DNA of 64,000 nucleotides from Labyrinthula sp. Ha. Lineage: Eukaryota > Sar > Bigyra > Labyrinthulida > Labyrinthulaceae. The first letter of the stretch is position 1, and each line of letters begins with the position of its first letter. Positions 8,001-45,471 of the stretch are shown here, piece after piece. The stretch is taken from contig JAALGZ010000017.1 in NCBI GenBank assembly GCA_015227615.1, positions 1 to 64,000 of the forward strand. The letters are read 5' to 3'. A program made the position numbers and the translations under genes. The notes below the pieces were generated by a model, which was not told the DNA's origin, made no database searches, and saw only the letters and a list, made by a program, of their open reading frames with translations.

Positions 8001-8049
8001 TAAAAGTTTGATTCAATTACATCGCCGAATCTTCTGACCCGATATTATT

Positions 8050-10956
8050 ATGGTCTGTAGTACTTGTCCTTTTTGTAAAAATACCTATAAAAATATTCAT
8101 AAACACCTACTGAAGAGACATCAAAATTGCTTTACAACTGAAGTTCTTGCTGATTATGATCTCAAAAAGTGTCGATGTGGTCGTGTGGTTAAGAGTTTGC
8201 CACATCATGCTCGCTACTGCAAACTTGCCTTGGATGTTGAATCTTCTAATGCTTCTACTCCAGTTACAACTTTTATTCAATCTGAAACTATTCAAAACAA
8301 CAAAACATTAAGCTTCACAGCATCATCTCTCTCAAAAAATTCATTTTCTAGCCTAACTGAGGATGATTTAACAACAACTGAAACCATCGAAACCGAAAAT
8401 GGAAGATTCTTACTTTCGGAGTTTAAGTTCCTACTAGATGTCTTACAAGAGGAACAACCCTCCTCTCTTGCTCTTTCTAACTCTCTAAATTTCTTGGCAC
8501 GGCTTCCACGAAAAGACACTTCACTTAATCTTACTGAAACCAAAATATTTTCTAAAACTTTTAACACACTCTGTAATGATTACAACCAATCACCCACTGC
8601 AATCAAGTTGCTCAAAATTCTTTGTCTACCTAAGCTCGTGGCTAATGCAATTGTTACCAAAAACAAGATCTCACATTTTAGAAAGAATGCTACCTCATTT
8701 CCAAACAATTTAGACGCGTCTATTTTACATGCATCTTTTAATGCATCATTTTCTTCTAAGAACACTGACTTGAAAACTAAAGTAAATCATCTACTTAAAC
8801 TTAGGAAGATTAAAAGAGCCTCTAGAGCTCTCTCTGATGATGATTCGCAGATTCAGTTTGATTTTTCTCCAGAGCTAAGGCAGCAACTCATGGAAAAACA
8901 TCCCTTTGAACAACTTTCCACTTGGAAGAACTTACCCATTTCTAATCTAAATTTCTCTCTTGACTTTGTTAAAATCATTTGTAACCAATTTTCTACAGAC
9001 ACTGCAGGTGGGATCTCAGGGTTTGACGGCACCTTACTTAAAACAATTAAGCACCTGGACTCATTTAAAAAATTTTTGCAACTCCTAATGATGGACATTT
9101 CAAAAGGAACTCAACTTTTTAAGGAAGCGTTAACTACCTCTAGACTAATTGTTCTCAAGAAACCCTCTGGTGGTCTGCGGCCCATTGCAATTGGAGAAAT
9201 CTTTTACCGCATTGCAGTGAAAGGAATTTTGCGCATGTTACCGAATTCCTTACTTTTTAACCAACTAGGCTGTGGATCAATTGGTGGAGTAGAACCTTTG
9301 ATTCATCATGCTCGAAAACAGATTTCTGATGGACGTAAAGTTTTTACATTTGATCTTAAAAATTCTTTTAATTCGGTTTCTAGAAATTTTTTAATGAAAG
9401 AACTTAAGCAAAGATGTAAACTACTGTGCAGGACATTTAACTGGAGTTACGGCTCAGCTGCAAAACTTTTCTTAGGCGATGGTAGTTTCTTGCATTCAAC
9501 ATCTGGTGTAAGACAAGGTGATCCCTTAGGCCCTTTACTCTTCTCAATTGCACTTAGTCCAATCATTCAAAAACTAGAACAAGCCCTACCTGAAGATGAA
9601 GTTTCTACTTACTTGGATGATCTAGTAATCTGTTCCAAAACTTCTGATGAAACAATGTTAATCAAGAAAGTTCAAGATGTGTTTACCTCTTTTGAAACAT
9701 CATCACATCTAAAACTCTGTAGTGAAAAGACAAAAATATTTTCCAGCTCTAATGAAGACCAGTTTCTTGGCTCAACACTCTCTCAAAATGAAACACTCTT
9801 CAACAAACACTTAGATGACTTCAATTTAAAACTAGAAAAACTTAAACTTTTGCATCATCAAGATGCCTTTTACCTGTTACGGACATGTGTCCTTCCTCAA
9901 CTTATTTTTTTTCTACGAACAACACCTGTCGATGCCAGACAATGTCAAAAGCTACATTCCTCAATCAACTCATTCATTCAATTCTTAACTTCAAAGTTTT
10001 CCTTTACACAGTTCAATTCTGATTTAATGCATTTACCCATTCGCAATGGTGGATTAGGGCTAATGTCTCCTTCGTTAATCTCTCATCATGGTTTCCAGGC
10101 AAGCAAAGAACTTTCTGAGCGACAAATGGAATCTGAAAATTTTCATTCTGAGCTCGATGTGGTTAAGCAGTCTAGTAGACTCAAGGATGCTTACAAACAA
10201 ATCATGAACAATCTCTTTGATTCATTCAATGACTTTGAAAAACTTTGTTTTGCGGAAAACTCTACTGAAATTGGTTCTAAATGGTTGCATGCACTTCTCG
10301 TAGAAGCTTCAACTAGAATTCTAAATCCAAATTTCTGTGCATCAATTTGCTCTAGATTACTTCTTTCACCTAGCTGTAGGAATGGCTGCTCTGAGGACAG
10401 AATCAACCATTTTGAGCATTGTTCATGTTTTTCTCAAGTTAAGGTTTCACGACATGAAGACATTAAAAAATGTTTAGCTGATTTTTTTAAAGAAACAAAC
10501 TGTGTTGTTTCACTAGAGCCATTTAGCAAGAACAACAATCGAAGAGCTGATCTTTTAATTTCTACTACACAAGGAAAAACCGCATTTGATGTTTCTGTTG
10601 TTTCTCTTACATCTAAAAAAAATTTTAGAACCCTTGATTCTCTGAGGGAAGCTTTGGCCTCTCTACGTTTAAACAATGATTCCAGAGAATCTTCAATTTT
10701 GCTTAGGTTAGCCGAAAATGTCTTAAGGAAAAGAGTGGCATCCAAGACCAGAGAAAATACTGGACTAGATTTTGGTGGTCAATTCCAACCGTTTGTTCTC
10801 TCTACTGGTGGTGTGGTCAGTAAAGAATCATTAGAACACGTCATTAAACAAGGTAAAAAAGACCCTGGTGAGTTGTTACGTCTGAGGTACAAGCTTTCCG
10901 TTAGTCTAACGGTACATCGAAGCTGGGCATTCAAGTTGTGTGCAAGAGGCTGTTAA
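8050..10956 (+). CDS. R2-like ORF: zinc fingers, reverse transcriptase, restriction-like endonuclease (968 aa)
   Basis: This single polyprotein would nick a specific target and reverse-transcribe its own RNA. The N-terminus has a C2H2 finger (Cys6, Cys9, His19, His24) and a second Cys/His cluster (Cys41, Cys43, His53, Cys57) for DNA recognition. The RT motifs include FDLKNSFNSV (434-443), GVRQGDPLGP (486-495) and the active site YLDD (521-524). The C-terminus has a Cys/His knuckle (Cys776, Cys780, His787, Cys791) and the PD-(D/E)xK-type nuclease core (Arg831-Arg832-Ala833-Asp834, then Asp847 in FDVSVV). There is no apurinic endonuclease domain, so it belongs to the early-branching REL-endo LINEs (R2/R4/CRE/NeSL groups), not the jockey/L1 groups. 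The frame has no interruption and the element may be active. It starts at the first ATG after the repeat array and ends at TAA. Confidence 0.9.
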   Translation: MVCSTCPFCKNTYKNIHKHLLKRHQNCFTTEVLADYDLKKCRCGRVVKSLPHHARYCKLALDVESSNASTPVTTFIQSETIQNNKTLSFTASSLSKNSFSSLTEDDLTTTETIETENGRFLLSEFKFLLDVLQEEQPSSLALSNSLNFLARLPRKDTSLNLTETKIFSKTFNTLCNDYNQSPTAIKLLKILCLPKLVANAIVTKNKISHFRKNATSFPNNLDASILHASFNASFSSKNTDLKTKVNHLLKLRKIKRASRALSDDDSQIQFDFSPELRQQLMEKHPFEQLSTWKNLPISNLNFSLDFVKIICNQFSTDTAGGISGFDGTLLKTIKHLDSFKKFLQLLMMDISKGTQLFKEALTTSRLIVLKKPSGGLRPIAIGEIFYRIAVKGILRMLPNSLLFNQLGCGSIGGVEPLIHHARKQISDGRKVFTFDLKNSFNSVSRNFLMKELKQRCKLLCRTFNWSYGSAAKLFLGDGSFLHSTSGVRQGDPLGPLLFSIALSPIIQKLEQALPEDEVSTYLDDLVICSKTSDETMLIKKVQDVFTSFETSSHLKLCSEKTKIFSSSNEDQFLGSTLSQNETLFNKHLDDFNLKLEKLKLLHHQDAFYLLRTCVLPQLIFFLRTTPVDARQCQKLHSSINSFIQFLTSKFSFTQFNSDLMHLPIRNGGLGLMSPSLISHHGFQASKELSERQMESENFHSELDVVKQSSRLKDAYKQIMNNLFDSFNDFEKLCFAENSTEIGSKWLHALLVEASTRILNPNFCASICSRLLLSPSCRNGCSEDRINHFEHCSCFSQVKVSRHEDIKKCLADFFKETNCVVSLEPFSKNNNRRADLLISTTQGKTAFDVSVVSLTSKKNFRTLDSLREALASLRLNNDSRESSILLRLAENVLRKRVASKTRENTGLDFGGQFQPFVLSTGGVVSKESLEHVIKQGKKDPGELLRLRYKLSVSLTVHRSWAFKLCARGC
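10898..10912 (+). other. Short perfect palindrome near the retrotransposon 3' end
   Basis: CCGTTAG-T-CTAACGG can form a 7-bp hairpin stem. It lies in the last codons of the ORF and is retained in the truncated copy (6977-6991), so it belongs to the minimal 3' segment present in both. R2-type RTs recognise structured 3' RNA; a role here is inference. Confidence 0.35.
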
Positions 10957-19110: not shown

Positions 19111-22100
19111 CTAAAATCCGTCGTCTGGGGAGATTATTTCATGCTCAAGAATATATTCATTTGCAGCTGATATATATGGTTCACAATCAGCTAACCCTGA
19201 TATAGCCAACAGAACAAGAATTACTGACTGTATCCAATATTTCTCCACCTTCTTGTCGAAATAATTATACCTGATGATAAGTCTCATTTCATCAAACAGC
19301 CCTTTCTCCAAGATTGCTCCAAGTGTAGAATCATCACTGGACCATCGAAGCATGAAATCAAAGTATGCAACTGGAATATCCTTGCTTCGAGCCTCCTTAT
19401 TTGATTTTTGCCTTGAGGAGTTCCATGCTAGTGCAAAGGAATCCATTTCAACTTGGGGTCTTATCAGGGAGTCAAAGTCAGCTCTTCGAATAAAATAATA
19501 ACACAACATACTACAAAAACATCGTTGCCCTAACTTAGTCAGAACAGCCGCGTGTGCAACTGACCATCCAACGTAAAAGGTTAGTTCTAGAAGGCTCTTT
19601 TTAACCCCAAGAACAAACAACTCAGTTTCTTGCACTCGATGCAGATAGTCGAATTTATTCACAGGGCTGAGAAGCCGAAGCTTTTTTTCTCTAGGCTTAT
19701 CCCACGGCCAGGTAGAACCTGATGAGATTTCCCCCATCAACCTTAACACGTTCATATAGAGACTGTCATGTTCGTCTACTGTAAGCTTTCTTAACGACAA
19801 GCAAGCTTGGGCTAACGAGAGTGAAATGTACCTCAAAGTATTTACAGTGCTTGCTATATCTTCATACTCTGAGTTATCATACACGCCTGCTAACTCATCT
19901 TTCTTGTTATCGCTTTCAACTTTGTAACAATTCGCAAGACCTAAGAGTGCATAACCACTTCTAGGATTGCTACTTCCCTGATCTAACACATAGGAGTCTA
20001 ATGCAGATTTCAGGAATGGCTTCGCTTGTAGCAGATCTTCCTTTAAGTATAAATAAAAATTCCCAAGACTAGTTTGAACCTGCCCTAATTCAGATCGGTC
20101 ATATTTTTCCCTTAGCCGAAAGCACTTCATATAACTTTGTTCGCACGAGAGCTCCAATTTCTTAAGGATAGAATCCATAACATCCTTCAAGTTAGCGTCA
20201 TCTGGCACAATTCCACAAAACTTCTCCGGGACAAGTTGTTTTATCAAAGCTAGCGGCTCCTTAGAAGACTCCAAAGCTGCCAATGTAGAGTCCAAAGATA
20301 ATTTTTTATGCAGCTCTTCATAAAAAGTTCCAAGCCCATTCAAACTCTCAGCGACACCAGGAAAGTCTTTTTCTCGTTCCCTGAGTGCTACAGCTTTTCG
20401 AAAAGACTCCTCCACCTTTTTGACGGAATTAAACCTCTTTGAAGGATCCAACGCTCTGATGAATTCATTAAACTCTCTTGGTAGATCTGAATATAACACG
20501 TTATAAGCTTTTTGGTGACAGACCATAGCTAGACCTCGCGCATTTGGTTTCCCACCATTCAGTTCAGTGAATTTTTGCTGAGCAAGTTCTGCCTTACGCA
20601 ATAGTATCGGTGGTGACAAATTGGTCTCCTTCCTTGGAGGAACTTTATACCTACTATAGATCTGAAACAAGTTGCATAGGTCATCACTTATATCAAGCAG
20701 TGCTTGTGGCAAGCTATTATGGTCGAGTATATCTTGCGTGTTGACAACAAGATTAACACCAGAGAGAAAATCCTTGAAAGAGTCTTGATCCCTTGGGCTT
20801 TTCAAACTTGCATGAGTTCGATTATGCGGGTCGTAAGCATCCCGTGAAGAAGGAGATCCAAATGAACTTCTAGGAGACGGAACCTCAGCTACGCTTATGT
20901 TCAATGAGCTTTCAGAAAAAAAGTCAATCCCTTTTGAGGATATAGTCTTGTGAAGTGTCCTAGGCCGTGGACTTCTTGGCGCATTTGCAACCATTGCGTC
21001 CAACTTAACCCCACTCTTATCAAGGATTTGTGTGGCCATTTTTACAGCAGCGACAAATAGTTCTTCTGCTTGCGCATAGACTCCTATAGATTTTATGTAT
21101 TCAGCTGCTTTTTTTAGATACTTCACAGCAATATGTAACCTATCTGTTCGACTCCAATGATATGCAACTTTCATTAACAAGCTATACTTGCTTTGCGCAA
21201 TGAACTCTTCATCTATCTTCCCAATCTCCAGCTTTCTTCCTTCACTCTCTTCCATAGACAAGGCTTCGTCTATCTCTATTTGTGGAGCCATAAGGTTAAC
21301 AGTTAGCACTGATTCCTTTCGATCATACTTCTTTAACCCTGGAAGAATCATTTGTTGACTCTCAATTAACCAGTTCTTGTATCTCTTATACTCTCGCTGA
21401 TAATATTTGCCAACTGCTTCATGTAACTTTTTTCGTTGATCATCTAGGATTAATTGATTGACAGCATCAAACACAGTCATATGCTCAAAGCTGTACTGGA
21501 ACTCAACTTCCAATATAGAGCTGTCACTAGTTGATTTGCTCAGACTATTCTGAGAAAACCTCTTATGTAACTTATGTTCCACTTCTTCGAGTTTCGCTAT
21601 GAAACGACAGTTTTCGAGCTCAATCAGGCTTTCTTCCAATGAAACGGCATTCTCTTCCCTTATTTGTTTAAGCACAGAGCTGCTGAAATAATAACCAATA
21701 ATGCAACATGTTTTTAAGATGAGTTGTGACTTAACGCTCAACTTATCAAATCGACTGTTTATGACTTGATTCACACTTTCGGGCATAATAGTGTTTAGCC
21801 TTGATAAGAAGCCTGCAATGCTATTGTTCTGTAGGCTTGCACTCTGTTCTTGAATTATCTGAGCAATGCCAAGAAGGAACAGTGGGTTTCCAGAACATCT
21901 ATCATACACAAATGATGCCAGTTCATCTGAATTAAGAAGATCCTTAAGTCTCTCCTTAGCATCCTCGCCCTCTGAATCTTCATCATATTCATCTTCACTA
22001 GAATTCAAAGTATGCATTAAATCCTCATCCTCCTCAAGAAATCCTGCTGTGGTTCCATTCCTTTGTGGTAATGGCACTGCCCTGAAACTCTTGCTCAAAT

Positions 22101-24627
22101 CAGTTGTAGAGTTAAACACATTCTTTAACAGTGCGGTACAGCTGTCCTTGGTCAAAGGCAATAACTCTAGTTTTATACATTTCTCTTTATGCCTTGTAAG
22201 AAGTTTCCTGTAATATTCAATGACGTGAGGGGGATAAGCACTAGAACTCCATACAGGTCGAATAGTAGTTACGACCAGAAAGTTCTCCCGAGATAGGACA
22301 GCTAGTTTTTCTAAGAGTTTCCATGATAACTCATCAAGCCAGTGTGCGTCTTCAACCATGAGTATAATCTTTGATACATGCAGTTCTGAGTATGTAATTA
22401 GGAGACTAATTACCATCTCTAACTGGAGAGAAGTCTCCTGCTTAGAGCCTTGGATGGCCTTAACTTCGGAATTAACGGGAATAGTCTTTAAACAGGGAAA
22501 AAGAGGATATAGAAGAAGGATGATTTTCCTATATTTTTGTCCCAATGCGGCAACCAGAGCTTTAGTGGTCTCTACACTATTCTGAGTTATATCTCTCTTT
22601 CTTCTTGTACCTTTCAAGCCAACATCTTTTACATTTTCCGCACTGACAGTATGTATGATTCCAGTAGAAGCACCGGCAGTGGTCGAAGTTTTCTCCACCA
22701 AGGCCTCATGCAAGAATTTTAATGCATCCCTCACAACATGACCCCACGATGCGAGCGGTATTCCAAAGCTGCCACTTTCCCCTCTTAAACTGAGTATGCT
22801 TGCATGAGTTTCCTCTAAACAATACTGGGCAAAGAACCTGAGCAAAGTACTTTTTCCTGTTCCTGAAGATGCCTCAACAGCAACAAATCTTACTTTTGTA
22901 TCTTCTTCCAGGAGGTTCTGCAGTTGTTTCATTTCTTTCTCTCGCCCGACAAATGCTCCTCGTGCGAATAAGCCAAATTTCCCTTTAGAGTCTTTCGTCA
23001 TAGCATCTACGTCCCTATTGTAATATCTGCTTGTTTTGTGAATTATGCTATCCTTGATAATATTTTTTCTTGAGTCAGTCTTCCTTAGATTTTTTTGAGG
23101 GATGTATACTTTTACAGGTTCAATATAGCCCTTGGCAATTACAGGTTCAATTGCCTCAAAGGTAAACTCACAGAACTGGTCATCAAGGGCTTTTTCTCTT
23201 AAGTCTTCATTGCAAACAATATGCACACCATTTCTTTTGAGTTTCATGCAGGCCCCCATTAATCTAGCAGCCAAGTTCATACTGGCTCCCATAACTCCAA
23301 AAGCTTGGCGGTATTCTGATCCGACAAGGCCGCAATAAACTCTTCCGGTGGTTAATCCAATATGACATGACAAGCCAAGCGAGTTTAGACGATTCACAAC
23401 AAAGAACGCGGCTTTCAACCCACGTTGAATATCATCTTCATGGCTGAATCCTGGAAGGCCAAATGCTCCAATTGCGACAACTCCCTTGTCATCATACACA
23501 AACTGCATGAAAGTTCCACCTTGATCCAAGATTGCTGTAGATACCTGAGTGAAACAGCTTTGAACTCGATCCAGTTCACCTTCATTTAGTGTAGAAATCA
23601 AATCATTTATATTAATAAACATAATAGTCACATTTTGACGAACCTCAGACAAGAAGTAAAGGCTGTTGTTCTCACAGTGAGCTCTTGCAACTCCTGGAAC
23701 CATTCCTCCCAAACTTCTTTCAACTTTTTCAAACTCCTTAACGGACATCTTTTCCTTAAGACCATCCCATACCATCATTTCTTTTTGTCGGTTTAAATAA
23801 AATGTTAATTCATTTTGTGTGCTAAACGGCTTGTTTTCTAACTTGTGTACAATATATATTCCAGATGGATGATCTTTGGCTTCAAGAGCGGAATTCAGAA
23901 TGTGATACAGCTTTGATGAAATACCAATTTGCCCATGCTGAGCATTATCTAACGCCAATGCCATTTCCCCAAGTGGCTGACCAGCAACAATATACTCCCA
24001 GCCGCACCCACGTTGTCCACCAACATGAAAGCACTGTAAAACTCCATGTGTGATCCCTATATGCAGCCTCAGTCTCACCTCAACATCGCCTTCTTGCTTA
24101 TCGTAATGAGAACATTCACTGCCAACAACATCCAGCGCACATTTTACTGCTTTTAGTCCCTTTTCTCTATACTTGTCCGTTAACTCTTCTTCAATATTTT
24201 CAATTTTAAACGGCCATATGACTATAAGTGCATCGCCTATAAATTTATGAACATCTCCACCATGTTTATAAATAATATCAAGAATAAGAGTAAAGTATGT
24301 ATTAATATGTTTCTTAGTGACTTCAGGTTTAAGTTGTGTACAAAGTCTGGTAAATCCTGAAATATCAACAAACATAACAATAGAATTGCATGTAGTCACA
24401 GATGGACTTGGATCGTTAGGGTTTTGAGTAACTGGTGCCACGTCATGGAAGAAACTGACCTGTTTTCTTAATTTTGGCTGCTTTGGCTGCTGTTCCTTGG
24501 GTTTTGGGAAAGCAATCGTTCGATGCAACATTGTTGGAGAAAACTTCGCATAATTATTGATAGATATTCTTGTTTTAATTTCATTCTTTCTTATCTCTTT
24601 ATTATTTTGTCTATATAAGGATGTCAT
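19111..24627 (-). CDS. Soluble adenylyl cyclase, ADCY10-like (1838 aa)
   Basis: The architecture is that of metazoan soluble adenylyl cyclase. It has two class III cyclase homology domains (about 80-260 and 330-510), then a P-loop NTPase (Walker A GTGKST 589-594; Walker B LMVEDAHWLDEL 756-767) and a long helical TPR-like C-terminus. Domain 1 keeps the metal-binding aspartates (Asp88 in FVDISGFTR, Asp132 in IGDALIV). In domain 2 the first aspartate position is Asn (MFININD), as expected for the pseudo-symmetric partner that supplies the other half of the active site. It makes cAMP from ATP. ADCY10 relatives respond to bicarbonate and calcium, which cannot be read from sequence here. There is no membrane segment, so it is cytosolic or ciliary. 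The start is the first ATG after an AT-rich leader containing a GGCCATATGGCC palindrome. The gene is intronless. The ORF ends at a TAG followed by a 326-codon in-frame extension. Confidence 0.92.
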   Translation of the reverse strand: MTSLYRQNNKEIRKNEIKTRISINNYAKFSPTMLHRTIAFPKPKEQQPKQPKLRKQVSFFHDVAPVTQNPNDPSPSVTTCNSIVMFVDISGFTRLCTQLKPEVTKKHINTYFTLILDIIYKHGGDVHKFIGDALIVIWPFKIENIEEELTDKYREKGLKAVKCALDVVGSECSHYDKQEGDVEVRLRLHIGITHGVLQCFHVGGQRGCGWEYIVAGQPLGEMALALDNAQHGQIGISSKLYHILNSALEAKDHPSGIYIVHKLENKPFSTQNELTFYLNRQKEMMVWDGLKEKMSVKEFEKVERSLGGMVPGVARAHCENNSLYFLSEVRQNVTIMFININDLISTLNEGELDRVQSCFTQVSTAILDQGGTFMQFVYDDKGVVAIGAFGLPGFSHEDDIQRGLKAAFFVVNRLNSLGLSCHIGLTTGRVYCGLVGSEYRQAFGVMGASMNLAARLMGACMKLKRNGVHIVCNEDLREKALDDQFCEFTFEAIEPVIAKGYIEPVKVYIPQKNLRKTDSRKNIIKDSIIHKTSRYYNRDVDAMTKDSKGKFGLFARGAFVGREKEMKQLQNLLEEDTKVRFVAVEASSGTGKSTLLRFFAQYCLEETHASILSLRGESGSFGIPLASWGHVVRDALKFLHEALVEKTSTTAGASTGIIHTVSAENVKDVGLKGTRRKRDITQNSVETTKALVAALGQKYRKIILLLYPLFPCLKTIPVNSEVKAIQGSKQETSLQLEMVISLLITYSELHVSKIILMVEDAHWLDELSWKLLEKLAVLSRENFLVVTTIRPVWSSSAYPPHVIEYYRKLLTRHKEKCIKLELLPLTKDSCTALLKNVFNSTTDLSKSFRAVPLPQRNGTTAGFLEEDEDLMHTLNSSEDEYDEDSEGEDAKERLKDLLNSDELASFVYDRCSGNPLFLLGIAQIIQEQSASLQNNSIAGFLSRLNTIMPESVNQVINSRFDKLSVKSQLILKTCCIIGYYFSSSVLKQIREENAVSLEESLIELENCRFIAKLEEVEHKLHKRFSQNSLSKSTSDSSILEVEFQYSFEHMTVFDAVNQLILDDQRKKLHEAVGKYYQREYKRYKNWLIESQQMILPGLKKYDRKESVLTVNLMAPQIEIDEALSMEESEGRKLEIGKIDEEFIAQSKYSLLMKVAYHWSRTDRLHIAVKYLKKAAEYIKSIGVYAQAEELFVAAVKMATQILDKSGVKLDAMVANAPRSPRPRTLHKTISSKGIDFFSESSLNISVAEVPSPRSSFGSPSSRDAYDPHNRTHASLKSPRDQDSFKDFLSGVNLVVNTQDILDHNSLPQALLDISDDLCNLFQIYSRYKVPPRKETNLSPPILLRKAELAQQKFTELNGGKPNARGLAMVCHQKAYNVLYSDLPREFNEFIRALDPSKRFNSVKKVEESFRKAVALREREKDFPGVAESLNGLGTFYEELHKKLSLDSTLAALESSKEPLALIKQLVPEKFCGIVPDDANLKDVMDSILKKLELSCEQSYMKCFRLREKYDRSELGQVQTSLGNFYLYLKEDLLQAKPFLKSALDSYVLDQGSSNPRSGYALLGLANCYKVESDNKKDELAGVYDNSEYEDIASTVNTLRYISLSLAQACLSLRKLTVDEHDSLYMNVLRLMGEISSGSTWPWDKPREKKLRLLSPVNKFDYLHRVQETELFVLGVKKSLLELTFYVGWSVAHAAVLTKLGQRCFCSMLCYYFIRRADFDSLIRPQVEMDSFALAWNSSRQKSNKEARSKDIPVAYFDFMLRWSSDDSTLGAILEKGLFDEMRLIIRYNYFDKKVEKYWIQSVILVLLAISGLADCEPYISAANEYILEHEIISPDDGF

Positions 24628-36941: not shown

Positions 36942-37076
36942 TGAAATACTTCCCAGCAGTTTCGAATTACCACTGGGAATGTTTGTATCTCTTGAAAAAT
37001 TTATCTCGCTTGCATTGCGTATTAACGCTTAATTCGACAACTGCTAACTATGTAACATCATCATGGAATTACCCCA
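36942..37076 (-). repeat. 3' LTR (135 bp)
   Basis: TG...CA ends, about 87% identical to the repeat at 43,930. On the minus strand it is preceded by a purine-rich AAAGGGGCAA, a reasonable polypurine tract. Confidence 0.85.
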
Positions 37077-37129
37077 TTGCCCCTTTAAGGTCAACTCCAT
37101 GATCTCAATCTAATTCCTGAACGCAGCCG

Positions 37130-37790
37130 AAGTATATTTTAGCTCATCTCCGACCATGAGCCTTTTTTTGCCACTTCAGGCTTCCTTCCAAAATTTTCTA
37201 TCTTCGCGCATCCTCTGCAGCATGCTTCAATTCTAGACCTCAACTCGCGAGACTTGATACTGCCCGGTTTTCTGGGTGTCAAGATCACATCGCTCTCTAA
37301 ATATGCTTGCATCATCATCATCGACAACTTTCCCCTCTAGAAGACTATACACTCTTCCGTCACTCTGGCCATCAAGTTTCTTGGTCCATGCTGAACTAGC
37401 TTCTTCTCCAAAAACTTTACCCATACGATGTGGCACTTCTCTCGATTCCCGGCTTGCCTCATCCATTGTCTAACTAGTGTTCCTTTGTTCTTCGCTACCC
37501 AGTAGAAGACGTGGCCCCTAGGAACTAGTCTACTTGTTGGTATTTTCTTGATCTCTTCATCAGGAAGTGTCTTGTGCTTCAGTTTCACTCCTCGTGTAGG
37601 GTTTGCCGACGCGATGTGCCAAGGTGGATTGATAATCATCGTCTCTGTCATACCAAATCCTATTCTCAGCATCGTCCTGATCACTTCGTCCCAATTTAAA
37701 GTCGTAACATTTGCATCAATAGCGTATGCTCCTGGTGGAAGAACCAGTCCTGTTCCCAACGAGATATCTTTATCGAACACTTCATAAATT
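37130..37790 (-). pseudogene. MT-A70-like adenine methyltransferase part of the LTR element (fossil)
   Basis: Conceptual translations show, in the family's order, an NPPW motif (family signature DPPW), a segment like the METTL3/METTL14 'IP.L...G.IFLWV...' core (here KKIPTSRLVPRGHVFYWV), an IVWVK-like strand, and near the end KIENFGRKPE, like the family's RKIELFGR. MT-A70 enzymes methylate N6 of adenine in RNA or DNA. This part lies inside the LTRs, on the element's strand and within about 65 bp of the 3' LTR, so it was element cargo. It is decayed here. Confidence 0.75.
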
Positions 37791-38204
37791 CAGTACACCC
37801 TAATGCATCTCGTCTTTATTCCGTCGCTACCTCTCATTGTGTACTCATCTCGGCCCAGTTTCGACATCCTTCGTGACCTAAACTCCTCGAGGATCTCTCC
37901 CAATCGCTTTTTCTTCTCGGCTTTCTGCATTTTAAAGCACCTTTGTTCCGCGACTTCTTTTTATAGCTGGTTAATTGCATTATCTATATTCAGGCTCTCG
38001 GAAAAAGTACGTTTTCTGTATTTGCTTCTGATCTTAGCCATCTTCAAGTATTGCAGGGATTCCATTTTCTGTTTGAACGTCGTATTCTTCCTATAAAATA
38101 GAATCTTTTTTACCTCCGGCCTACTCCTAAGTCCAAGTCTCTTCAGGTTAAACCATTTTTTGCCAAAGACTCCCATCTCGGGATCACTCTCGTCTTTTCC
38201 TTAT

Positions 38205-38500
38205 AGAACTAGACTCTATACCTCTGACCATTGTATTTCGCTACCTCCCTCGTATCGGGTCTCAAAAATCTATACTCGAATATCGACTGCTTTCCCAGTA
38301 AGTGCTGAACCCTGGAATACAATGCTTGATTTAACCTTCCAAGTAGGTAGTTCTTGCTCATAATCGCAGTATAGTTTCCAACTCCATGTTTCCTTATTGC
38401 CCCTATAAGAACCTTGTCCGCGTAAATATCCCAGAACCTTGCCAATCTTGCTCTCTCTTGTCCAATTCCTAGGTGGAGCAGTGCTTCCTTGGTCAAACTA
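38205..38500 (-). pseudogene. SANT/Myb-like DNA-binding part of the LTR element (fossil)
   Basis: A single helix-turn-helix-like unit is seen: FW..YADKVLIGAIRKHGVGNY, then a TAIMSK..LLGR segment and a final helix ending RVQHLLGK. The spacing and the KHG-G-[WY] signature resemble SANT/Myb repeats. It sits between the chromodomain-like and MT-A70-like parts. Confidence 0.6.
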
Positions 38501-38715
38501 TCCTCTCACCTCCTTTTGAAGAACCTTCCCATCAGTTTCTTCACATCCTCCCAAATTACTTCTTGCGGCTCCCAGGTGTCGTCCTTCTGGGCGAAGCCCT
38601 TCCACCTCGTACACAGCTCGTATCTTCCATTTTCATGTCTTAAATCAATAAACCCTTGGACCTCCAGCAGCCCCCGCATTCGAAGCGAACTGCTTCCTAA
38701 CTTCAACACTGGGAA
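38500..38715 (-). pseudogene. Chromodomain-like part of the LTR element (fossil)
   Basis: The translation shows a chromodomain pattern: a first strand with a polar run, YELCTRWKGFAQKDDTWEP (compare Y.VKWKGY....NTWEP), and a C-terminal helix. In chromoviruses this domain follows the integrase and directs integration to marked chromatin. Confidence 0.75.
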
Positions 38716-38989
38716 CGTACCCCTTCAATTCATATCATAGAAGCCGTGTAGCGTGTGTATTGACCTTCTTCTCCTGCATAGATTCCAATTTTTAGACGTT
38801 CCCCGATAGTTTTTTCACCAATTTATACATGCCTCTCTATTTGAGCTTCGATTTAAACCGGTCAGTATGAGTTTCTGCTCTAGAGAGTATAGCTCAATCT
38901 CCTTCCCCCAACTGCACCATTATAACTGCTTTCTTGTTGTTCCAAACTGCATTCCTCTTGTTCCTTAGTAAAGCTGTGTGATTGTATAT

Positions 38990-39830
38990 GCTCTGTCAAT
39001 CCTCCTCCAGCTTAGTTCGCATCCCTTGGACATTCCTTGTTACTTCTGTGATATCTTCAGGTGTCCTCCAGATGACCTTCTTTGTCTTTTTATCAATCAG
39101 CGGCAAGGCCCAGTCTTCTTTGCTTAGCATGGTGTCCTCGTCCCTTTGAAACATTATCACTTCGTTGGGTGATAGTCCATCATTAGCAGACGATGGACTC
39201 TTGTTCATGTAATACACTACCTGCTCGAGCAAATCTGGTCGTTCGCCCTCCTCAAGACGGTACTCGCTTAGGAAGGATCTCAGGTACTTCGATATCGGTC
39301 CATTTGTAGTTTCAACACCTCCATTAGTAAAGGGACTGTAACTAATCACGAATTGCTGTGTAAACTTAAAGAGACTTTGCATCTGACTAAATAGTTCATT
39401 ACAGAAATGACTGCAACGATTCATAAACAATATGAAGTTTTGAACAAATCCAACACCATTCCTCCACCTCAGCAGGCTTCGGGTTGTACCATATTCCGTG
39501 TACTCCTCGTGGTGTGTAAGCTAGCACTTCCTTGGCAGGGAATCCACAATTACTAAAATGTACCTCTTTTTTTTTTCAATATATAAATAGTCCATGAGCA
39601 GGACTTCTCTTGGCCTTAGCCCCAGCTGAGTAACAATTCTTGGTCTTCTTATTAATTTTGGTTCTTTCTCGTAATGGAGGGATTTCTTTCTTACCTTACG
39701 GATCATCTCTCTCAAATCCTTATTCTTAACTGGTTTGAAAGTGTACTTTGCCTTAAGTGCCTGTAGCTCCCTTTGTTCTGAAAAATGTCCTTCGCTACAG
39801 TGATTGTGTAAGATTAACTTAGCCATTAGG
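38990..39830 (-). pseudogene. Integrase part of the LTR element (fossil)
   Basis: Pieces recognisable as retroviral-type integrase: a His/Cys zinc-binding N-terminus (LHNHCSEGHF), the first core strand with aspartate (LLMDYLYIEKKKRYILVIVD) and the later core helix region with the SPFTNGGVETTN segment. Broken. Confidence 0.75.
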
Positions 39831-40199
39831 TTCTCATGTATCCATATATTCCCCCTCTCTTTTCACAATAAACCTTCTCCTCTCTTTGACAAGTTTCCTC
39901 TCATCTGGGGTTAATAGTCGGCTGTATTTCTGTGCCTTTCTAACCTATGCTTCGGATAATGGATTCCACTTCTTCTTGAACAGGTGATTGAACATTCCAA
40001 TTCTGGCGTCATCTAGTTATTTTAGCTATTTCTTAGCTTTCTGTGTCGCTTTTACTGCATTGGCGGATCTCCTAGTTATCATCCTTACCTTCTGCCCGAT
40101 CTCAATCTAGCCTTCATCATATTCAAACTCTTCTAGACCTTCTGTTCTTACAACTGGTTTCTCACTGGCTGCTTGCTCTCCTGGTAACTGGACTTCGTT

Positions 40200-41580
40200 T
40201 AAGCTATTTTCGCTTCCTCACCTGCTCAGCATGTCGGCAAATACATTCCTCATTCCTTCTATGTGTCTGACCGCAATATTAAATATTTGCATCATCAAAA
40301 TCCACCTACCCAGTTTGTCCATATAGATTCTTTTATCGGCCGCAATATGTAATAATATGTAGACCAAGTTCTTCTGCTCAGTGAAATAGTTTCAAGGAGT
40401 GGGATGACCAAGTATCAAGTAATCTAACCTAAAAGTGCAGGCAAGCATAGGATAAATTTCCCTGTTGCTAATAGGTCACTTCAATTGGTAACCAGTAAAT
40501 TTCACAGAGAACAACGCAATGAATTTATATTATTGTTCCAAAAAATGTTCATAAATTCACTCCTGCTACACTGCGTTACCAGAAAACTCTAGAATAATTC
40601 ACTTGAATTCAAAAATATGTTCAAATCCAATCCTTGGTCATATGTTACTGAAAAGCATATTTGGTACTTTTGAAACATCTTTTAGGAAACTATCCTAGGT
40701 TTCCTTCAACTTTTTGTTACGTTTTAGTGTTATATTCCAAGCCTTCAGTCTCGTCATTGATCCCGTTGGATCAACTGATTCTGTCAAACCTGCTCTGATC
40801 TTCAAAAGCTTTGGTATTGTGGAACTTAACCATGACGCCAGATAAACTATTTCAGCTAACTTATGGTGGTACTTTGACTTGCTTGTTCTGGGTATCTTCC
40901 TGTAGTATTCAGGCAAAAAACTCCATCCTGAACCTTTCAATGCTCTGTCACAGTATGTAACTTTTCTCGCCACAAAGGGGCATTTCATTGGGGACATTAT
41001 TATTCCCCATCCTCCTCAACTGTTTGAGAAACGCTATAAGTACCTGAACATACTTTTCCTCCGAGCTCATGAAGAAACAAAAATCATCTATCCACTGGAT
41101 CATGCCATTGGGCGTATTGGTATAACATCCAGTGTCCTTTAACATCTCTTCTACAATAAGCTGCTGGAGCAGCATTGGGATATTTGTCAAGCCTTGAAGC
41201 AGATACACTGGCGATAGACTGTTCCACATGGCGTCATCAGGCCAAAGTAATTTCTTACTCCCTTCCTTCACCGGTACCTGATCGTACCCTGAACATATGT
41301 CAATGCGTCCATCAATTAACCCGCCTCTGGTATGATTGGGTTGCTGCTCCAAAACAAGAAGTTTCTGTGCTCTTTTTACCGTCAAAGTGTTTATAGGTTT
41401 CATATTACCCTCGAGTCTGAGCTTCGCAGGATCTTTCTTAGGTACCGCGAATATTCTAGCTAAGTAGTTTGACTCTATCTTCTTCGCCAGTCGAATCAGG
41501 TACATCTTCTTCATCATAGCCAGCTTATTCCTTAACCACACCACCATCTGTGCTCCTACTGCTCTAGCCTTCATAGTTAT
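40200..41580 (-). pseudogene. Reverse transcriptase and RNase H part of the LTR element (fossil)
   Basis: Gypsy-type RT core pieces are visible (FAVPKKDPAKLRLEGN, RIDICSGYDQVPV, IQWIDDFCFF), followed by connection/RNase H pieces that end with RWILMMQIFNIAVRHIEG...FADMLSR, like the family's RWALRLQEFDFEI..PGKENVVADALSR. Broken. Confidence 0.8.
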
Positions 41581-41919
41581 GGACTCTGGAGCATTCTTTT
41601 TTAGGACAAACTTAACAGAAGACAGCTTGCTCAGTACAATTCTACTCTGTGGTAGCGCAAAACATTTTTAATATAAAAGTAGAAGGTCTTGAATCTTATC
41701 AACAAATCCCTCTGAAGACGGCATGATCCTTCTCATCTCCTTTATCTTGGCCCTTATCTCGGTCTTAGCTTCCTCTTCCTCGCCCACGTATGTTTCCAAT
41801 TCCTTCAGAACCTCTTCCTCCATCTCTTCAATAGGGATAACTATATTGTCGCCACCACTGGGGTCCTCTAAGTCCTCAAGGTCATCACCTTCGTTTGGGT
41901 CCTTAAATCTTACTGGGTG

Positions 41920-42810
41920 CTCTCACGGCAGTCCCAGCTGTTCCATGAGTCTTCTCTGCCTTATTCTCTCTTGAAGGTCTTTTTGTTCTTCCTCTGAAGC
42001 TCTTCCTTCCTTCTCCTTCTTTAAAGACTCGCCATCTCCATCAGCTCTTCTTAATATTATTCCCGCTACCTCGATACTATTTGTTGCTACCACTTTTCTC
42101 TTTTCTGGAGCCTCCTTGTTCATTTCCTCTTCTGTCAAATTCCTAAGTATCTGCTCCGACAAGCAATCGAAGTTTTCCAATACTCTTCTCCCAATAAATA
42201 TCTCCGGGAATTCTGAATCTACAAGGAATATTCGGGTTTGACCGAAAAATGTAGACCCTTTCTCGTCCGCGAGGGTCCGCAGTTCTATAAAACCTTCTTT
42301 CGGCGCATATACTATCGTTTTCTTGTCTGCTAAAGATACTGGTATCGGCGAGCGTCGCTTCATTCTTGGGCAAAAGTCACCAAATAAATCTAATCCAGCC
42401 AGCGTATGCGTAGCTGCACTATCCATGCAACCCTCTACTACAACCCATGTCTCTTTTATGGAATCCAAAGCTTCTATTTTGGTCGTTCTTTCTGTTCTCG
42501 TTCACTTCACAAATATGTTCCCTACACTTCTGTCCCTGTATCCACTTCCCTCTTCAACCTTCGCACGCGAAGCGGACGTGCCTGAGGAACCATCTTCTTC
42601 CCTCGCGTCTGCGGTCAGGTTATCCTCTTCTGTATCCTCTTTTGGTTCTAAAACAGTTTGCCCTGCTCCACCTTTCTTCTTTTTCTCTCTTCCTTCTCGT
42701 TTGTCTTTGTTGTTGACAGAGTTCTTTTTGTTGTTTTGTGGACAGTTGTGGGCTATGTGGCCCTTTCCTAAGCACTTGTAGCACTTCAAGTCGGGACATT
42801 GAAGCATAAG
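41920..42810 (-). pseudogene. Zinc knuckle and protease part of the LTR element (fossil)
   Basis: A CCHC knuckle (CYKCLGKGHIAHNC) lies near 42,740-42,790. A retropepsin-like start (GCMDSAATHTLAG) lies near 42,400-42,440. The order fits the gag-to-pol boundary of a Ty3/gypsy element. Broken. Confidence 0.7.
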
Positions 42811-43309
42811 GTGTGTTACAGAACCACATATTCTGCGTTTCTTTTTCCACTACATTCTCTTCTTCCCATTTCCTCTGAGAGGACGCTGTGGTTGTTCTGT
42901 CCTACGGTTTTTCTTCTCCAACTCTTCAATTTTCCTATTTAATTCCGCAACCCGTACTTGTGCGTTTCTGGAAGAGAGAGTTTCCTGCTCACTGATTTCT
43001 TCTTCCTGCGCTCCCTAATCTTAATGTTCTCGACTGCGGTGTAGCTCTCCATGGCCTTGCTAAACTTGCCTCACGTGCTAACTTCAGGGTTTTCTTTCTT
43101 GAAATCCGCGTAAGACATTGTAACGTAGGGTGGGAGCTTCTCCACTAGAGTTCTCAACATCTGCTTCTGGACCGTTCGATTACTAACTCTTGTGGTCCCT
43201 ACCAGATCTCTAACCTTCTAGATGTACCTCTCCAGGACTTCCTTTCCGGTAAATGCGCCATTAGGCCGTTTCAGCTCTCCCCTGAGCTTCCCCAATGCCT
43301 GAGTCTGGT

Positions 43310-43900
43310 GCTACCCATTGAGAACCTCGAGGTGGAGCTTCAAGTAGTTCATGATCGCCTCGTCGTCACTGATGTTCACCTCCTGAGCTTCCGCTAGCTC
43401 CAGAATATGGATTGACATCCAATCTGTGACGCTAATGTCAGCGCCGGCTACTCTGGCACACTTCCTCATCTTCTCCATCCTTAAGACGAACTCGCCCAGT
43501 TTGTCCCTGTCCAGGGCATCATGTTTTTGGATCTTCGGGGGTCGGAATCCCCCTCTACTGCCCACGGCTTCTCTACCTAGTGACGCGTGGATGCTCGTAG
43601 CCATGTTCAGCCTCCTAAACTGGTTCATCATAGATGTGAGGAACTCATCCGCCGTGATGCTTCCTAAGGGAGACCCAGGGTCAGAGACTCTCCCACCTCT
43701 AGGATCTTCCGCATCTGGCTTAGGACCCACTTGAGGTGGTACTTCCTCCACCACCCTGCTCGGTGATTCCGGATCTGAACCTACATGACCCCTCCCTGCT
43801 GTACTCTCTGGTATTTCCAGTCCACGTGCGCTTCTAGGTCTAGGTACTCGAGGCCTCGGATTGCCTTTTTCGTCTAATTCATAAAATTCTTCACTCATTT
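43310..43900 (-). pseudogene. Gag part of the LTR element (fossil)
   Basis: A Pro/Arg-rich N-terminus is followed by a helical region typical of Gag capsid. It begins about 30 bp inside the 5' LTR. The family call rests on position, composition and the zinc knuckle further downstream. Confidence 0.6.
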
Positions 43901-43929
43901 TCTATACTCTTTTCGCTAAGCTATAGCTT

Positions 43930-44064
43930 TGGCGTACTTCCAAGCGGTTTCGGATTACCTCTGGGGACGTTTGTATCTTTTGAAAATTTTCTCTCGCTTG
44001 TATTGTGTATTAACGCTTAACTCGACAACTGCTAACTATGTCACATCAACATGGAATTACCCCA
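43930..44064 (-). repeat. 5' LTR (135 bp)
   Basis: Partner of 36,942-37,076. Just inside it, on the minus strand, is a perfect AAGCTATAGCTT palindrome where a primer-binding site would be expected. I cannot match a tRNA. Confidence 0.85.
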
Positions 44065-45471
44065 TTTGGGAAAACATATCTTTTGGTAATTGAATAATCC
44101 AATCAAACAAAGTGGTGTACAATAACCCAGAGTTTGAAAATCATAATCTAGAAACAAAATATATACTCAAATCTAAACTAGAAAATGAGTTATGATACAT
44201 GTTCTAAGAAGTTTTATGTTGCAGAGAAAGTGCAAATAGAGAAAACTTTTTTCTTAAACTTCACTTCAAGTACGTTTTCTTACACTTTCATGGTTTCTTG
44301 GAGCTTTTAACTTCTCGAGAAAGCTAGTCAGAGGAAATCAACCCAACATCAAGGGAGACTTCTTGCGAAAATTATGTTTCGATGAACTTTGCTGCTATGC
44401 ATGAATAAATTCAACTCACCAGTTAAACGCAAAATTGACCCTTCAAAACCTTCACTTGCTTTAAGTGAAGAATGAATGGCCCATCAAAAAATGTTCCAAC
44501 CCGAAAAGTATCTAAGCTACCCGAAAAATGCGAAATTTTTGTATATCCCTCTCATGAAAAAAAATCCACAGATCATACCTAGAATAGGAAAAGAAAGAAA
44601 GCATATTAAACTTTAGCCGTATCCTTATGCTCCAGTGGGTAGACTTATTATGGAACAAAGAATAGCTAGTCTAATAATAGTGAAATATCATATATACATA
44701 GGATGTTTTTGAATCAAAATTTCCTGAGGAAGAAGAGGGGAAAATGTAGCATGTTCAATGAATAAAATTTCTATTCCTTTTGTGAATTCATCACCTATCT
44801 CTGTTCTGTCAACAAACGTTGTTCTTTCTTGAAAACACAATGGGTCTTAGAGTAGCTAAGTCAACACCACAATTGTGATGTAATAATTGTGATAAAAAGT
44901 TGGAATACGAATCTACAATGGATGTTACACATCTTGATTTCATTGTAATTAAAAATTAAGTCATGGTTCTTGTTTCAGTATGTGGAAACCTTCTGATACA
45001 GTGACGTTGCTCCGGCTGTAGAGTCTTTGTTTGGAGATTTTCAATGGGTTGAAGGAGGTCTTGAATTGACCAATTGGTCAATGAGGGAGGTTAATTTTAA
45101 GTTTGGGAAGAATTTGTTTTGTTGTTCAGTGTTAATTCATTACTTGAGCAACTACAGTAATGCAGCACTGTATTGCTACTAACTTTAGAACTTCGAACAT
45201 CAAAGGAGTTCTTTGAGTCCATTTCCGCTTTACTTTTTTGCTTAACTTGTTTGCGGTAATTTGTTGTCATCAATGTTATTAGTTTACATTATAGAACAGT
45301 GTTTACGTTTTCCGCTGTTGTTTGCTTTGATTAGAAAATGCCCATCAAAGGAATTATTTGAGTAACTATTTGCTTTATTTACCTTGTAATGAGAAAACGA
45401 ACTTCAAAACTAAATGTTAATTAACTTTTTTTCTTTCACATTCTTCTAAAACGAACGGTTAAATAACTAAC
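44065..45471. other. Intergenic, between LTR element and receptor gene
   Basis: No clear gene. A short open stretch at ~45,010-45,182 (+) reads protein-like (FGDFQWVEGGLELTNW) but has no recognised family. The downstream part is the 3' flank of the minus-strand receptor gene. Confidence 0.4.

Follow-up and report, generated by a model that had tools for sequence, protein, structure and literature searches.

A decayed Ty3/gypsy-type retrotransposon of Labyrinthula belongs to a lineage whose Pol ends in a chromodomain, a SANT/Myb-like domain and an AMT1-like MT-A70 domain

We analyzed a 64,000-nucleotide stretch of DNA from Labyrinthula sp. Ha (contig JAALGZ010000017.1, positions 1 to 64,000; hereafter, the window), in which a decayed Ty3/gypsy-type long terminal repeat (LTR) retrotransposon lies on the minus strand from 44066 to 36947 (on C63 in our labels). 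In the direction of the element, its parts are a protease motif, reverse transcriptase (RT), RNaseH, integrase, chromodomain, SANT/Myb-like domain, MT-A70 methyltransferase domain and 3′ LTR. The 5′ LTR (43935..44066, maybe reaching 43930 according to the alignment with the C65 element introduced below) and the 3′ LTR (36947..37078) are 132 bp each and form a direct repeat with 89.4% identity. No target-site duplication was found for the window element; duplications were clear in some other elements only. A single BLAST alignment (36947–44064) matched the element end to end to a younger relative, the C65 element, at 70.6% identity, and segments of this relative were used as tblastn queries to place the parts of the window element.

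All parts lie on the minus strand. A 12-bp perfect palindrome, AAGCTATAGCTT (43918..43929), occupies the primer-binding position immediately internal to the 5′ LTR. The frame at 41923..42501 contains a protease-like motif, CMDSAATHTLAG, whose counterpart in C65 is CLDSGATHTLAG according to a motif scan; Pfam gave no match for this frame. The RT frame (40948..41667, 239 amino acids (aa)) matched RVT_1 with E=6.5e-5 and 23.2 bits, below the cut-off of 29.6, and showed 69–76% aa identity to the four nearest elements; the C65 segment search placed RT at 41005–41466. Next follow RNaseH (40269..40727; 8 stops, 48% aa identity to C65), the integrase zinc-binding part and core (39320..39892; 2 stops, 70%) and the integrase C-terminal or SH3-like part (38705..39079; 5 stops, 56%). 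Downstream of these are the chromodomain (38494..38673; 1 stop, 65%), the SANT/Myb-like domain (38194..38463; 1 stop, 71%), a linker from SANT to MT-A70 (37760..38182; 2 stops, 48%) and the AMT1-like MT-A70 domain with its upstream strand region (37113..37759; 71%). Thus, the last three domains lie where the first-pass annotation had put them, within the LTR pair and on the element's strand. The three motifs that it had quoted as signatures of these domains, however, all fall inside MT-A70.

The window MT-A70 has one in-frame stop and a frame change near its 3′ end, and showed 66–75% aa identity to the nearest genome copies among the matches listed. Pfam was run on the 150-aa window frame at 37337–37789 only, which an in-frame stop ends before the end of the domain, and gave no MT-A70 match at E<=0.1. 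A PF05063 match was thus missing from the one window frame tested and present in intact relatives; the C65 domain matched PF05063 with E=1.1e-23. We assigned the window domain to MT-A70 because it is 71% identical to the C65 domain recognized by Pfam and scored 68 bits in phmmer against the AMT1 of the same genome. Its catalytic motif is NPPW in place of the DPPW of C65, i.e., N replaces D. This substitution, together with stops or frame changes in most parts, indicates that the window copy is dead; therefore, evidence on function was taken from its relatives.

Eight full-length elements (C101, C122, C140, C95, C127, C1, C65 and C2) were examined. As long frames or relatedness to the window element guided their choice, their young age is not typical. 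LTR pairs were present in all eight. Six of them (C101, C122, C140, C95, C127 and C1) contain a single open frame of 2,180–2,660 aa between LTRs of 364–602 bp that are 97.5–99.8% identical. The LTRs of C65 and C2 are 137 and 124 bp, respectively, and 100% identical, and stops part Gag from Pol in these two elements. In 8/8 elements, the MT-A70 frame ended close to the 3′ LTR border, its final sense base lying anywhere from 60 bases upstream of the LTR to 24 bases within it. Across the genome, 18 of the best 150 PF05063 places showed a stop-free match in open frames of 2,061–2,660 aa. The genome-wide search proposed in the first-pass annotation thus found further copies with the same cargo, and Pfam analysis of the polyproteins bore out an LTR lineage in which a chromodomain, SANT/Myb and MT-A70 follow integrase and precede the 3′ LTR. 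RVT_1, RT_RNaseH and rve occurred in that order, and MT-A70 was above the Pfam cut-off in all 12 Pol-containing frames scanned. Chromo was above the cut-off in 6 of these 12, below it with E<=0.01 in five and absent from one; Myb_DNA-binding was above the cut-off in one, below it in three and without a match in eight. The SANT-like W and G.G positions were invariant across 16 aligned elements.

When the C65 RT-RNaseH was compared with the PDB, the best match was 8r0s_A, named enzymatic polyprotein (1.8e-24), which we take to be from cauliflower mosaic virus, followed by Ty3 RT (4ol8_A, 3.5e-17). LTRs at both ends and a Ty3-type RT-RNaseH followed by integrase support a placement of these elements in Ty3/gypsy (Metaviridae), and the chromodomain at the integrase C-terminus suggests that they are chromoviruses. 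A chromodomain is usual for chromoviruses; cargo in the strict sense comprises SANT/Myb and MT-A70.

A protease-like motif was found upstream of RT in C1, C65 and C2. In C101, C122, C140, C95 and C127, the sole motif of a retroviral protease (DSGA) sits downstream of integrase, in the stretch from SANT to MT-A70 (records L041+L011, L013+L042, L014+L043, L015+L044 and L018+L045, respectively); L014 matched Pfam RVP with E=0.0012, just under the cut-off. A protease motif 3′ of integrase is an unusual gene order, and L022 (C76) also has a protease motif at the SANT/MT-A70 position. In C2 (C2:876697-883979; L048+L024), a Gag-protease frame of 573 aa and a Pol frame of 1756 aa are in the same frame with one TAG between them, as in readthrough retroviruses, and places on C37 and C148 share the 1756-aa frame.

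The window element is a dead member of a large Ty3/gypsy-type lineage in which Pol ends with a chromodomain, SANT/Myb and an AMT1-like MT-A70, and we consider it probable that this enzyme methylates the element's own DNA. The kind of enzyme was assessed using 30 element domains; near-copies and partial rows were excluded, and AMT6/7 and AMT2/5 were not included in the comparison. The best score was with AMT1 (the genome's own L008 or Tetrahymena MTA1) in 30/30 domains, at least 21 bits over METTL3, METTL14 and METTL4. The P.RG segment after the catalytic motif was present in all 30 and in both AMT1 rows, but not in METTL3, METTL14 or METTL4. Two element domains compared with the PDB matched Tetrahymena MTA1 with 5.8e-38 and 1.6e-35 and human METTL3 with 5.5e-29 and 3.7e-21; METTL14 and plant METTL4 were weaker, and MTA9 gave 0.009 or no match. 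The C-terminus of C65 was modelled with AlphaFold2 (mean predicted local distance difference test (pLDDT) score 72.6), and the best 11 Foldseek rows for this model were MTA1-complex chains (TM-score 0.80 by target length); for the C122 model (AlphaFold2, mean pLDDT 74.8), MTA1 and METTL3 tied. By sequence, then, the element enzyme resembles AMT1/MTA1, the eukaryotic enzyme that writes N6-methyladenine in DNA (6mA), as in ciliates, more than it resembles METTL3, METTL14 or METTL4. The MT-A70 cargo of the first-pass annotation is thus upheld, with the kind of enzyme corrected to one nearer in sequence to AMT1/MTA1 than to the RNA writer METTL3.

Alternatively, the enzyme may write N6-methyladenosine (m6A) on RNA and mark the element transcript, acting on translation versus packaging or evading RNA surveillance. 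MT-A70 includes METTL3, which was second best in the PDB comparison, and a working m6A RNA demethylase is encoded by orchid Gypsy elements according to PMC9289625, indicating that RNA marks matter to some LTR elements. However, the AMT1 preference and AMT1-type P.RG segment of all 30 domains make an RNA writer unlikely. In addition, the assembly showed no METTL3 gene, its best match to human METTL3 being the AMT1 candidate (44%), although introns could hide one. This candidate, L008 (C91:220767-221270), shares 57% identity with Tetrahymena MTA1 across the domain and is likely a host AMT1. The presence of L008 and the apparent lack of METTL3 suggest that DNA-6mA machinery may exist here without the RNA writer. 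Viral contigs yielded no relatives when searched with patterns of two polyproteins; a search of viral contigs with AMT1 returned three distant MT-A70 loci, which were taken as outgroups. A scan of prokaryote contigs with a single AMT1 pattern found no relative, which shows the reach of that scan only. Bacterial MT-A70 enzymes exist in print.

The active-site motif was mostly kept. Among the 30 domains, the catalytic motif was DPPW in 18, DPAW in 5, NPPW in 3 (including the window copy), DPPY in 2, DAPW in 1 and DPPG in 1; in 16 aligned elements, the D of the motif was invariant, as were other conserved positions. Selection was assessed from the ratio of nonsynonymous to synonymous substitution rates (dN/dS) in pairs with dS 0.02–2; the pairs share sequences and are not independent, and those with dS >1.4 are near saturation and were not used. 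For MT-A70, dN/dS was 0.053–0.216 in ten pairs with dS 0.1–0.3, 0.089–0.188 in four pairs with dS 0.08–0.1, and 0.135–0.464 in nine pairs with dS <0.08, in which changes were few. For RT-RNaseH, it was 0.047–0.055 in four pairs; RT pairs with dS <0.1 (n=5) showed 0.061–0.194. The element MT-A70 is under purifying selection. The ratio between the window copy and its nearest partial copy, L033 (0.315 at dS 0.44), fits a decayed copy. Another possibility is that the domain interferes with host methylation by pairing with the host AMT1 or its partners as a decoy or regulator, for which it would not need catalysis. MT-A70 enzymes act as heterodimers according to PMC12695648, the DPPW motif is altered in some copies, and one AMT1 candidate (L008) was seen in the genome. 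Nevertheless, a pure decoy would need neither the invariant D nor the DPPW kept in 18/30 domains, and we regard this explanation as improbable, more so than an RNA writer; the element enzyme would rather be active, with DNA as its substrate.

Copy number and location were assessed in the whole 50.8-Mb genome, each search scoring the best 150 places. Joined MT-A70 queries (family PF05063, the window domain, METTL3, AMT1 and the C46 domain) gave at least 279 distinct places. At least 195 of the 279 listed had RT, RNaseH or integrase on the 5′ side, on the same strand and within 5 kb; among the matches listed, a pol domain was on the opposite strand in none and on the 3′ side in four. The remaining 84 places lack a scored pol domain upstream. 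This is expected because the RT, RNaseH and integrase lists hold the best 150 each; therefore, these places are not evidence of host genes. Conversely, of the best 150 RT matches to the window RT, 135 had MT-A70 on the 3′ side, on the same strand and within 4.5 kb, and none had it on the opposite strand. A first impression that 61/150 RT matches lacked MT-A70 was set aside, as further MT-A70 queries left 15/150. MT-A70 was also 3′ on the same strand for 123 of the best 150 RNaseH and 87 of the best 150 integrase matches. By coordinates, at least five elements occur as two pieces in the RT list; therefore, the number of elements is slightly below that of matches. That a host MT-A70 gene was landed beside or recombined into by an LTR copy, the case that the first-pass annotation had set against its own proposal, could draw on the lack of an MT-A70 match by Pfam alone in the tested window frame and on the 84 places, but it is wholly improbable and is refuted by the intact copies with RT and MT-A70 in one open frame, by the shared order and comparable spacing of the parts across many diverged elements and by the absence of opposite-strand cases. 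Chance similarity was rejected.

The C46 subfamily has at least 18 full-length domain matches with 90–100% aa identity to the C46 domain (query included), which suggests a recent burst. The C122 element has remains of another MT-A70 domain at its 5′ edge (L042:2049-2375, minus strand; 38.5% identity to L017, 2 stops), as would fit an insertion of this element into or next to an older copy.

Next, we compared the histories of RT and MT-A70. Their pairwise identities were strongly correlated (Mantel r 0.961 with 20 elements and 0.854 with 16 representatives, whose RT identity spans 26–79%; 0/9999 permutations as high in either case), and the RT-RNaseH and MT-A70 trees contained the same small groups. 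Therefore, the enzyme predates the split of the subfamilies or has rarely been exchanged. In the RT tree, C76 fell beside the C140 and C122 groups (100/99), whereas MT-A70 placed it with C115, C77 and C46 (88/86); given this discordant deep placement, exchange or poor resolution is possible. The first-pass annotation had also proposed an MT-A70 tree in which element copies might stand apart from the host. With a short alignment and long branches, a single clade of all element domains against host and reference sequences was at the edge of rejection (approximately unbiased (AU) test, p=0.0497), and a clade of the elements with AMT1 was not rejected (p=0.103).

Taking the lineage as one that methylates its own DNA, we propose the following course. 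The enzyme would most likely be made as part of Gag-Pol and would travel with integrase and the cDNA. It would then, perhaps together with partners, methylate adenines in the newly made DNA of the element and possibly also in chromatin at the target site. The chromodomain and SANT/Myb would be the targeting half, reading chromatin and binding DNA, by analogy to the chromodomain of the bdelloid N4-methylcytosine (4mC) enzyme (PMC8885841). In species with AMT1, 6mA at ApT marks expressed genes and colocalizes with H3K4me3, Trichomonas being partly different, according to PMC12695648. The enzyme could thereby label the cDNA or the insertion site as active chromatin. A new element copy bearing 6mA like such transcribed genes might resist silencing, which would be the benefit to the element. 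A bolder version, which we hold tentatively and at somewhat below even chances, is that the superfamily had acquired a eukaryotic-type DNA-6mA writer before its subfamilies split, that one polyprotein reads, binds and writes, and that copies mark themselves as active chromatin; by location, most MT-A70 sequences found in the genome (at least 195 of 279) would then belong to transposons.

Methyltransferase-bearing retrotransposons are already known, with Dnmt3 in DIRS-like and Gypsy elements or Dam-like enzymes in DIRS elements. KnitGypsy-Dnmt3 and SymbioDIRS-Dnmt3 (de Mendoza et al. 2018, PMC5890265) are likewise retrotransposons that captured a methyltransferase, and in KnitGypsy-Dnmt3 the enzyme is within the Gypsy Pol polyprotein with a ratio of nonsynonymous to synonymous rates (Ka/Ks) < 0.2. 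However, these are cytosine-5 enzymes, which the same source calls structurally unrelated to adenine ones, and its main text mentions neither MT-A70 nor chromodomain. The Dam-like enzyme of DIRS elements, cited there, is an N6-adenine methyltransferase in a retrotransposon, but of bacterial Dam type, whereas the element described here is of Ty3/gypsy type, has an integrase and bears an AMT1-like MT-A70 of eukaryotic kind. The orchid AlkB demethylase is a working adenine-mark enzyme captured by Ty3/Gypsy; it is reported as an RNA eraser encoded by an extra reading frame within a 25-kb element (PMC9289625), whereas here a predicted writer lies within Pol. AMT1/MTA1 (7f4r, 7yi8, 8xyl and 9u9e; PMC12695648) is the closest characterized relative by sequence and gave the best Foldseek rows for 1/2 models. 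In that source it is a host gene acting in a complex with MTA9 or AMT7, p1 and p2, whereas the element domain is fused to Pol, a chromodomain and SANT/Myb. Bdelloid N4CMT likewise joins a chromodomain to an amino-methyltransferase in a histone-read/DNA-write design, but is described as a host enzyme derived from bacteria, which produces 4mC and is not transposon-borne (PMC8885841). Ectocarpus Sola1-1_Ec32 is likewise a transposon with a DNA-binding domain (ParB) and an N4C/N6A methyltransferase, but it is a DNA transposon in which the enzyme, of prokaryote type, is encoded by a separate gene, as given in PMC12477816. Among the papers listed by our literature search, none was seen to name an MT-A70 in a retroelement, although an earlier description in print is possible; in PMC1282579 and PMC11441545, MT-A70 occurs in the reference list only.

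Eukaryotic MT-A70 families have been described as relatively static after early diversification (PMC12695648), in contrast to the at least 195 MT-A70 places that lie, by location, on retrotransposons in this one genome. Counts of MT-A70 genes that are used to predict 6mA or m6A capacity may also be inflated by transposons. The findings suggest that transposon parasites may write their own epigenetic marks. As intact and dead enzymes share one genome, the use of a host active-gene mark by transposons to escape silencing is testable.

The palindrome at the 5′ LTR/internal junction is shared. A perfect palindrome of 12–18 bp was present at this junction in 9/9 elements (the window element and the eight full-length ones), with a sequence that varies between subfamilies (example cores TTGAATTCAA, TTGGATCCAA, AAGCTATAGCTT and TTGTTTAAACAA); in controls, 0–2 of 1000 30-mers per element were equally good. 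It is possibly a priming or RNA dimer site. Self-priming via LTR complementarity was rejected, as the longest complementary stretch was <=8 nt. Enrichment of ApT was looked for in the LTRs, and none was seen.

Two other long frames were noted in the window. A 972-aa frame at 8038–10953 on the plus strand matched RVT_1 (1.3e-22) and a CoiA-like nuclease (1.1e-4, above the cut-off); from these matches, it is perhaps a non-LTR retroelement with a restriction-like endonuclease. An 1838-aa frame at 19114–24627 on the minus strand matched nucleotide cyclase and AAA_16, with weak TPR matches; this long, unbroken frame apparently belongs to a host gene.
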